Virus record (IMG/VR): IMGVR_UViG_3300048583_000052
Location: 1 to 49,286 of that record
DNA from: a virus
Length of the DNA: 49,286 nt
Reading direction: 5' to 3' (one strand)
Shown: positions 1,599-10,502 of the stretch, in pieces
Numbering within the stretch: position 1 is the stretch's first letter
How the letters are laid out: each line of letters begins with the position of its first letter
Notes under the pieces: model-generated
What the model was told of the DNA's origin: nothing
Seen by the model: only the letters and a program-made list of their open reading frames with translations
The model's database searches: none
Position numbers and translations under genes: made by a program

Positions 1599-1643
1599 AA
1601 AAAAATAATCTCCACATATTATTTTCTCGGAGTGTGGTGATTA
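1599..1643 (-). terminator. Rho-independent terminator of the candidate large RNA
   Basis: On the minus strand the arms 1643-1633 (TAATCACCACA) and 1616-1606 (TGTGGAGATTA) pair with one A-A mismatch (10 of 11). They are followed at once by T7 (1605-1599). It lies 8 bases before the ATG of the next leftward gene, so that gene needs read-through or its own promoter. Confidence 0.65.
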
Positions 1644-1904
1644 GTATTCTTGTTTCATAGATTAACATTACAACAAGCACACATAAGGCTAATTGATTTA
1701 GTTATCTCCACAATACTCTACTCCTGCTGACTAAGCTTTACCTTTGGCTCTTATATCCTAAAGTCAATAAAGGAATGGCACATTTTAGAGTTACATTTTT
1801 GGTGGCTTTACATGGTTAAGTGATTTGTATTTCTTAAAGCCATAAAGAAAACATCACTTTATTCATCATCACTAATATTAATAAGGCTGAGTCTTGACCT
1901 TATT

Positions 1905-1965
1905 TACTGTTATTTTCATATCTTTCGATACTTAAACACACCTATATTTCTATAGGTAAACAGTA
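1905..1965 (-). ncRNA. Three-way junction with two GAAA tetraloops
   Basis: The closing stem 1905-1911/1959-1965 (TACTGTT/AACAGTA) encloses hairpin 1940-1957 (ACCTATA, loop, TATAGGT) and hairpin 1919-1930 (TATC, loop, GATA). Both loops are TTTC on the plus strand, that is GAAA on the minus strand. Two GNRA-capped arms in one junction are typical of compact folded RNA. Part of the 1599-2440 candidate RNA. Confidence 0.5.
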
Positions 1966-2445
1966 TAGCGACAGATTATAAGTTCTGCAACTACTACAAC
2001 ATGCTATATAATTTACTCCTTTCACTCTTAGTTCCTTGCGAGATTCATAGGAGCGACCCTATTACTAATTAGTTACTTGTTTCAATTCAATAATTTCCTT
2101 GCGAGAAATTAAAGTCATCATATTACAGATGAATAACGCTATTTTCACATGTTGTGCCAAATACTCTTTGCTTTTTCTTTTAATTGGATATACTCTCAGG
2201 TATATTTGCTTACCAATAATCGTTTAGAAGATGTGATTTGGCTCTATATCTTGCCACCTTTTGAGTGGTTTAGATATAAACATCTTCTTATTTTCAGCCG
2301 CCAAGCTTACTCAATATACTTAGTCTATTATCCTACTATTTCTAACTCCAGCACCACCTGTAAGTTACACTTTGGTAAGTGTGATAGGATAAAAATAACC
2401 TTTCTTCATTAACACTATAAGAGTGGCGCTCTTTTGGAGTTAATG

Positions 2446-2476
2446 CAAATGTAGATTGTCAGCATTACTGCTCAAG
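2446..2476 (-). promoter_or_regulatory. Bacteroidota-type promoter candidate, leftward
   Basis: On the minus strand CTTG (2476-2473) is followed after 19 bases by TACATTTG (2453-2446). This fits the Bacteroidota -33 TTTG / -7 TAnnTTTG pattern with one mismatch in the -33 box. Predicted start near 2440, at the base of the first hairpin of the candidate RNA. A lone TAnnTTTG is expected by chance about once per 1.3 kb per strand here, so the support comes from spacing and position. Confidence 0.35.
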
Positions 2477-8534: not shown

Positions 8535-8899
8535 AGTTTTTTAAAATTAACAAGTATGTTCCTTCAAAAGGACATGTACTAATTACACAAGAAGTAGAAC
8601 TTTCTGTAGGAGATGAACTTCAAAAAAAGACAGTTTTCCTTTTGAACTTGCAAAAAGTAATAGCTGTAGGGCCAGAAGTTGATCCTATGTTTACTGTAGG
8701 AAGTACAGTACATATTGACGCTATTAAAACTATTCAACTTATGGATAGTGATAGTAGTGCTACTGTAATCTTAGATCCTAATGAGAAAACAGAAGATGGT
8801 AGAGTAGTAGGATACACTGTTATTCCAGAGTATTATATTAAGGGATTAGTAGCAGATTATAATGAAGTAACACTAGAAGAAAACCAAGAAAATGTCTAA
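8531..8899 (+). CDS. groES-like: GroES-like co-chaperonin, 122 aa
   Basis: Co-chaperonins cap the folding chamber of GroEL. The match is in the strand pattern: an N-terminal start KYVPSKGHVLIT (residues 9-20) like the GroES opening 'PLxDRVLV'; a loop (about 20-36) ending in VFLLN, where GroES has its IVL mobile loop; then KVIAVGPEV (42-50) and FTVGSTVHI (54-62), equal to 'GxVVAVGxG...VKVGDxV'; and a final VIPEYYIKGLV. It is longer than bacterial GroES (about 97 aa). Its place directly before a GroEL-like gene, with an 8-base overlap, strongly supports the call. T4 gp31 is a known phage GroES analogue. Confidence 0.75.
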   Translation: MKFFKINKYVPSKGHVLITQEVELSVGDELQKKTVFLLNLQKVIAVGPEVDPMFTVGSTVHIDAIKTIQLMDSDSSATVILDPNEKTEDGRVVGYTVIPEYYIKGLVADYNEVTLEENQENV

Positions 8900-10502
8900 A
8901 CAATTAGTATTCGGTAAAGAAGCAAAAGATCAACTTATAGAAGGAGTTAGAAAATTATCAATGGCTGTTACTTCTACATTGGGGCCATTTGGTAAGAATG
9001 TAATAATGAAAAGGCATTATAATCCGCCTTATATAACTAAAGATGGAATTACAGTAGCTAGAGATTTAAGGCTATTGGATCAGGTAGAGGATATAGGATT
9101 GTTAATGGTAAGACAAGCTGCAAAAAGTACAGCTGATAATTCTGGAGACGGTACAACTACTACTACTTTATTAAGTTATAAGATGCTTGAAGAAGCTTCT
9201 AAAATAATGGAAACTGATCTTAGTGCTTTTAAAAATATAACAGTTAGTAAGAAAATTTTCCATGAACTTAGAAATGTACTGATAGAGTTCATAAAAAGTA
9301 ATAAGTTAAATTACCCTTCTGAAAAGGATATGATACTTGATGTAAGTGTCATAGCTACTAATCATGATGAAGAACTATACAATGTAGTGTTTAATTGTTT
9401 TGATAAGTTAGATAGATATGCTGATGTTATTCTAAGTGATACTTTATCTACAGAAGTTAGTTATGAAATACATACTGGTATGTATTTTGAAGGAGGGTAT
9501 CTTTCTAAACACTTCATTACTGATCCAGTTAGAAATATATGTGAGTTAGAAAAGCCAATTATATTAGTAACTAACATAGATATAGAGAGGACAGAGCAGG
9601 TTGCTCCTTTATTAAGAAGACTTCAACATATGAAAAGGACTTTATTAATTATATGTCCTACAATAAGGAATGAAGCATTGATAGCTTTAAATAAACACGC
9701 TGAACATTTTAGAAATGTTTGTGTGGTTAAAAATCCTGGAGTTAATATAAGGAGAGAAGAATTGCTGCAAGACATAGCAACTCTTACAAATGCTCATATA
9801 TTTTCTAAGGAAAAAGGGGAAGATTTAGAAGTTATAGGTGATTTAAAAGACTGGTCTGGGTATCTGGGATTTGCAGATAAAGCAATTATTAGAATGGATA
9901 GCACCACTTTAACTGGTATAGATACTAAAAGTCAAAAGGCAATTGATAGAAGAACCTACATTGAAAATAGAATGGAAGGTATAGACGATATATATCTTCG
10001 TAAAAGATATGAAAAAAGACTTAGTTCTTTTACTAGTGGAGTAGGAATAATCAATGTAGGAGGACACAACGAACCAGAAGTTAAAGAGAAGAAGGACAGA
10101 TTAGATGACGCTATATGCGCTGTGAAATCTGCTTTAGATGATGGGGTTACTTTAGGAGGAGGATTTTTATTTAATGAATTTGCAAAATTAAATGAAAAGG
10201 AACTTATGAAAACTCCAGAAGGTAAAGTTATTTATGCAGGACTTATTTCTCCTATACTTCAAATATGGAATGTTAATGGTAATCAAAATGTACCAGATAA
10301 TTATGCAGATTATCTTAAAGCGCATAATGTAGTAGACCCAATTAAAGTACTTATTGATTGTATTAAAAATTCTATACAAGTAGTACATCATATACTTACT
10401 ACAGATTGTATTATTATAGATGATGAAGAAAGTAATCAAATACTTGGGGATATGCCATCTATAGAAGAGATAGCGCATGGCCCTAAACAAAAAGTAGAAT
10501 AA
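8892..10502 (+). CDS. groEL-like: GroEL-like chaperonin, 536 aa
   Basis: Full-length group I chaperonin (bacterial GroEL is about 548 aa). Nucleotide-binding motifs are kept: TLGPFGKNV (29-37), TKDGITVAR with D51, GDGTTTTT with D86, RLDDA with D406 before GVTLGGG (418-424), and VDPIKV with D482. These correspond to E. coli D52, D87, D398 and D495, so ATP binding and hydrolysis should work. The apical domain is recognisable (FEGGYLSKHF, LLQDIATLT) but several substrate-binding positions differ: L234 becomes A238, Y203 becomes H207, V263/V264 become N267/K268. The GGM tail is missing; the end is HGPKQKVE. With the GroES-like gene it forms a phage chaperonin operon placed before terminase, portal and capsid genes. 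Confidence 0.95.
   Translation: MSKQLVFGKEAKDQLIEGVRKLSMAVTSTLGPFGKNVIMKRHYNPPYITKDGITVARDLRLLDQVEDIGLLMVRQAAKSTADNSGDGTTTTTLLSYKMLEEASKIMETDLSAFKNITVSKKIFHELRNVLIEFIKSNKLNYPSEKDMILDVSVIATNHDEELYNVVFNCFDKLDRYADVILSDTLSTEVSYEIHTGMYFEGGYLSKHFITDPVRNICELEKPIILVTNIDIERTEQVAPLLRRLQHMKRTLLIICPTIRNEALIALNKHAEHFRNVCVVKNPGVNIRREELLQDIATLTNAHIFSKEKGEDLEVIGDLKDWSGYLGFADKAIIRMDSTTLTGIDTKSQKAIDRRTYIENRMEGIDDIYLRKRYEKRLSSFTSGVGIINVGGHNEPEVKEKKDRLDDAICAVKSALDDGVTLGGGFLFNEFAKLNEKELMKTPEGKVIYAGLISPILQIWNVNGNQNVPDNYADYLKAHNVVDPIKVLIDCIKNSIQVVHHILTTDCIIIDDEESNQILGDMPSIEEIAHGPKQKVE

Follow-up and report, generated by a model that had tools for sequence, protein, structure and literature searches.

What fills one of the largest non-coding gaps near the start of a crAss-like phage record? 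The window analysed here is the whole 49,286-nt stretch of this virus contig record (IMGVR_UViG_3300048583_000052). Hits to PHROG head-and-packaging families were obtained for its terminase, portal and major head protein, the terminase family is also matched by most related contigs, and tblastn with the window terminase finds named Crassvirales. Small minus-strand genes and long non-coding gaps occupy the first 4 kb. The initial annotation had read positions 2453-1599 (minus), inside one of these gaps, as a candidate large ornate phage RNA, either of the GOLLD or ROOL type or of a new class, with its own promoter and terminator. Elsewhere in the window, tandem TTAGTATTTATTTGTTTC copies lie in a non-coding stretch at 695-740, and a phage-encoded GroEL chaperonin gene is located at 8892-10502 (plus), upstream of the terminase (phrog_5725, E=4.5e-102).

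A conserved, covarying RNA on the minus strand

A blastn comparison of named phages with the window RNA and other members of its family gave no match. Non-coding gaps also occur at a comparable position in terminase relatives of the window, and some of these gaps have short pieces in common with it. A short pattern from one such piece identified at least 120 stretches in viral contigs, and the loci recovered contain full-length relatives of the RNA (L097, L137 and L098), the closest being L097 with 79% identity over about 900 nt. Three further pattern scans and iterated profile searches enlarged the set to 59 hits at about 55 loci in IMG/VR contigs, with profile E-values down to 1e-189. Near-full-length relatives number 46 (651-876 nt), and mean pairwise identity over 36 distinct relatives is 53%. 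Profile homology places the conserved extent at 2733-1872 (minus), about 860 nt, and each boundary given by the initial annotation is displaced by about 280 nt. Searched with a model of a single hairpin, 49 of 50 records contain exactly one copy, and 14 named Crassvirales-type genomes give no confident match.

The carriers are mostly uncultured Crassvirales, with a crAss-type terminase in 30 of the 49 records tested; several carriers lacking it are short fragments. Carriers of 187, 160, 154 and 85 kb (L257, L261, L269 and L281) have neither the crAss-type terminase nor the head protein families, and the RNA may therefore reach beyond Crassvirales. In-frame stops occur in the terminase gene of some carriers, a sign of recoding. 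A tmRNA gene is present on a 125-kb carrier phage contig (L250, 5449-5859). The architecture, in window coordinates, is as follows.

1872-2733, minus: whole conserved RNA, very probably a divergent GOLLD (profile homology to about 55 contigs; covariation)
1884-2288, minus: 3′ domain, corresponding to positions 1-416 of the GOLLD model RF02032
2289-2733, minus: 5′ domain, less conserved; in the alignment some relatives lack it or have a different one
2687-2733, minus: 5′ hairpin, 2733-2728 pairing with 2692-2687; inner stem GACT/AGTC
2224-2291, minus: two-stem hairpin with invariant CAAAAG loop, GOLLD model positions 1-70
1996-2155, minus: long-range helix between 2155-2147 and 2004-1996, as the GOLLD model predicts
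1965-2142, minus: multi-branch domain with closing stem 2142-2137/1970-1965 (significant covariation, helix table, loops)
2132-2115, 2112-2090 (GCAA loop), 2062-2047 and 2043-2033 (GCAA loop), minus: hairpins of the multi-branch domain
1906-1964, minus: stem 1964-1959/1911-1906 with hairpins 1958-1939 and 1928-1919 (GAAA)
1883-1901, minus: 3′ terminal hairpin with conserved ACUCA loop, the RNA 3′ end and last GOLLD model positions
1710-1858, minus: neighbouring conserved non-coding module F, immediately 3′ of the RNA (E=2.9e-16 to L235)
2446-2476, minus: promoter box of the initial annotation; internal, not conserved and not counted as a promoter
1599-1643, minus: terminator-like hairpin of the initial annotation; outside the RNA and unproven

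The initial annotation had named covariation in homologues as a check on its structured RNA, and such covariation is present. An alignment of 36 sequences and 831 columns was scored by G-test with average-product correction against a null of 20 alignments simulated along the maximum-likelihood tree. Twenty column pairs reached E<=0.05; all 20 are base pairs, with at least 86% of sequences showing a Watson-Crick or G-U combination at each. Moreover, in three separately aligned subdomains the observed covariation score was not reached by any shuffle, and the counts were likewise beyond all shuffles, apart from the number of pair types for the 5′ hairpin. Most of this subdomain covariation disappeared when the partner was shifted by one base. 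The two-stem hairpin shows compensatory change in 17 of its 19 pairs (0/500 shuffles), and the 1906-1964 domain has three pairs with E<=0.05 (0/500 shuffles). The 5′ hairpin, whose segment is held by 17 of the 36 distinct near-full-length relatives, has 99.2% of cells paired and both-side change in five pairs (0/500 shuffles).

Well-paired columns contain 221 G-U against 12 A-C combinations; G-U is tolerated only in the minus-strand reading and therefore the RNA lies on the minus strand, which RNAalifold also prefers. Fold z-scores of the true element are -3.4 on the minus strand and -2.0 on the plus strand, compared with -2.3 for the span originally proposed, so that the description of a long, strongly foldable, non-coding minus-strand stretch was sound. 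The GNRA loops pointed out earlier (GCAA at 2099-2102 and two GAAA) are present and conserved in relatives. We found no convincing sense ORF, as the initial annotation had observed; the longest in the window has 19 aa, and sense ORFs in the relatives are shorter (median 30 aa) than in shuffled sequence (40 aa). An 87-aa antisense ORF of the window is not common to the relatives. The window element is a conserved, covarying, non-coding minus-strand RNA.

Relationship to GOLLD

GOLLD RNAs are phage-borne, over 800 nt long, with a conserved 3′ region and a loose 5′ region, and assemble into a hollow RNA cage as seen by cryo-EM (PMC12286853). Rfam at the gathering threshold reported no GOLLD, and neither did a 3.9-kb scan at E<=10; the matches emerged from short stretches scanned with lax filters. 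The first were in L253 (116.9 bits, E=8e-31), L279 (100.3 bits) and L266 (72.6 bits), each spanning the whole model. In the window, 2288-1884 matches RF02032 at 1-416 of 416 (89.8 bits, E=3.8e-24; E=9.9e-26 for the whole record), the Rfam model covering the 3′ half of GOLLD only and the 5′ half (2733-2289) lying outside the model comparison. The GOLLD/ROOL kind of RNA proposed by the initial annotation is thereby supported; the window score is below the gathering cut-off (89.8 against 150 bits). Among carriers the model is matched in 34 of 49 records, 33 of them at full length with E<=1e-16. Full-length scores range from 59 to 134 bits (best 133.7) and none exceeds the cut-off of 150 bits, which is a curation threshold and not a structural feature. 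Because these scores fall below it, routine Rfam scans miss these RNAs. When 14 named Crassvirales-type genomes and 9 other uncultured records were searched in this way, none matched (0/23), and hence the model is not simply lured by such AT-rich DNA. ROOL is another large ornate phage RNA in a comparable size range; its model gave no match at E<=10 in the short stretches where GOLLD matches.

The RNA has its motifs in the same order as GOLLD: UCAAAAG, AAAGCAA, two CGCAA loops, GAGUAA and CUCAGCC. The long-range helix came from the GOLLD model and not from our own folding, and was used as an independent test. In 29 of 36 relatives its two arms, which differ in sequence, form at least 7 bp, compared with 33% when arms are swapped between relatives. 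The helix predicted by GOLLD holds by compensation. Further likenesses are the conserved 3′ and loose 5′ regions, the length of more than 800 nt, carriage by phages and the single copy. Relative to the Rfam consensus the RNA has one covarying hairpin (2062-2047) inserted and lacks another hairpin, and it differs from GOLLD more broadly in that its carriers are mainly uncultured Crassvirales and some members have a Pistol ribozyme at the 3′ end. Since E-value, length, motif order and covariation agree, we regard the RNA as a divergent member of GOLLD despite the sub-cut-off scores; 2733-1872 (minus) is very probably the gene for a divergent GOLLD RNA in a crAss-like phage.

If the RNA instead formed a class of its own among large phage RNAs, with only local features in common with GOLLD, this would explain why all scores stay under the gathering cut-off, why one hairpin is inserted and one missing, and why the RNA has its own conserved neighbourhood. 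However, the match spans all 416 model positions in the same motif order and the long-range helix of the GOLLD model covaries, which makes a new class improbable. Still less probable is a role in cis, as leader or regulator of the gene that follows in the operon. The next gene is co-directional in 35 of 42 cases (upstream neighbours, 44 of 48), but the largest family of downstream-only neighbours within 4 kb comprises 8 loci, no neighbour family adjoins the RNA in more than a handful of loci, and a strong terminator lies directly after the RNA in L242 and L269 and slightly further on in L274. A chance structure in AT-rich or coding DNA might be suspected from the low GC content (34%) and the modest single-sequence fold scores; it is refuted by the tree-aware covariation, and the G-U bias and the short ORFs likewise speak against it, leaving it a negligible probability. 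The divergent GOLLD assignment is therefore preferred.

Transcription and elements at the 3′ end

The promoter of the initial annotation, CTTG-N19-TACATTTG, is present as a string; it falls within the conserved RNA, and the relatives do not conserve its -7 element, which is disrupted even in L097, the closest of them. The hairpin plus T7 at 1643-1599, described as a terminator, is also there, about 230 nt beyond the RNA 3′ end and beyond module F too, and it folds only modestly better than shuffles (z=-1.6). With an internal, non-conserved promoter, a terminator outside the RNA and shifted coordinates, the idea of an RNA with its own promoter and terminator did not hold for the window. A Bacteroidota-type promoter is located upstream of the RNA in L257, L271 and L281. 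As a general rule, a stand-alone promoter/terminator unit was rejected: a promoter match occurs upstream in only 4 of 38 relatives and a terminator-like hairpin downstream in only 4 of 38, one of them weak. Module F adjoins the RNA in L235 too and stands alone in L013 and L015.

We suggest that the RNA would be transcribed as part of the minus-strand block, together with its small co-directional genes. In many relatives it may then be separated from this transcript by a 3′ element, to judge from position a Pistol ribozyme, a terminator or the TTCCCAAGG module described below. Pistol (RF02679) is a 3′ neighbour in some records and not part of the RNA itself. One Pistol occurs in each of 7 of the 50 carrier records (two just under the Rfam cut-off), in all seven on the same strand and 3′ of the RNA, and in four it starts at the very end of the RNA. 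Two pairs of the seven are near-identical loci and thus the independent cases number about five. Pistol was not found in the window, and no Hatchet was found in GOLLD-carrying records. Hatchet ribozymes were observed at L116 3088-3239, L034 1172-1310 and L124 6983-7121, in loci with ACAACTGAGTGCA and CAAGNTGTTGAG modules.

Another module lies directly 3′ of the RNA in L137, L098, L234, L236, L276, L282, L262 and L256. It consists, in order, of TGCACCA, a stem capped by the loop TTCCCAAGG, a second, long stem CAGTTGTAA/TTACAACTG that carries a variable insert, and GAGTGCANAGGG; as a pattern, TGCACCA is followed at some distance by the two stem arms enclosing TTCCCAAGG, then by CAGTTGTAAT and, after a gap, ATTACAACTGAGTGCANAGGG. 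The stem of the TTCCCAAGG loop is canonical in essentially all 91 distinct copies and all five of its pairs vary; a CCC/GGG pseudoknot is possible. The compact TTCCCAAGG/GAGTGCANAGGG module, with its variable insert swapped, occupies at least 120 stretches in contigs of uncultured phages (L023-L142 included), often with a start codon 30-60 nt downstream, and Rfam gave no convincing match to it in the stretches scanned. The window copy, at about 620-461 (minus), forms the end of another conserved non-coding RNA, about 330 nt long, at 796-461 (minus), which has relatives in more than 15 loci (including L240, L057, L235, L045, L126 and L039). Two further modules were observed. One, AAAAACTCAATAACTTTCCAAGATGTTGAGGACACCAGTTTCTTTGAT..ATCAAAGTTTTAGGTGTAAAAC, is present in 91 viral stretches (L016 5640-6490, L020 1210-1910 and L143-L214), sometimes directly after the TTCCCAAGG module. 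The other, beginning with CTATCCAGTAAGTTACTGGCG, is conserved about 70-130 nt upstream of the GOLLD-like RNA in L137, L235, L098 and others, and is absent at the corresponding place in the window.

Self-cleavage of the TTCCCAAGG module is only a guess from its position. We consider it rather unlikely, though worth stating, that in crAss-like phages self-cleaving RNAs at the 3′ end, either Pistol or the TTCCCAAGG module, free the GOLLD cage RNA from long early transcripts. If true, the TTCCCAAGG module would be a new class of self-cleaving ribozyme with more than 100 occurrences in uncultured phages.

Possible function and significance

Ordered RNA-only assemblies have been shown for three large RNAs, GOLLD among them. 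GOLLD forms a 14-mer cage with self-kissing loops between chains, its expression rises at lysis and it often lies near tRNA islands. In the window the RNA neither contains nor neighbours a tRNA; in several relatives tRNAs occur within 10 kb of the RNA. A candidate kissing loop at 2056-2053, whose correspondence to the named loop of GOLLD is unsure, reads GC or CG in 25 of 36 relatives, compared with a mean of 15.5 and a maximum of 22 in 500 rounds of shuffled letters. By analogy with GOLLD we lean towards the view that the RNA would assemble with its own copies into a cage. What such a cage might do is a more tentative matter, and our current guess, which may well prove wrong, is that it could hold or shield RNA or ribosome-related cargo. 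No downstream gene family is common to the relatives and for this reason we propose that the RNA would act in trans, as a free RNA. A partner protein was considered and rejected, the neighbours being small unknown proteins without a common family.

As a divergent GOLLD, this RNA would represent a previously missed branch of the family in phages of Bacteroidota and would bring GOLLD into Crassvirales. A sizeable part of the GOLLD family would thus have been hidden by the Rfam cut-off. The dozens of divergent members supply new sequence variation for testing conserved contacts. Moreover, the recurrent Pistol at the 3′ end gives a concrete hint at how the RNA may be released.
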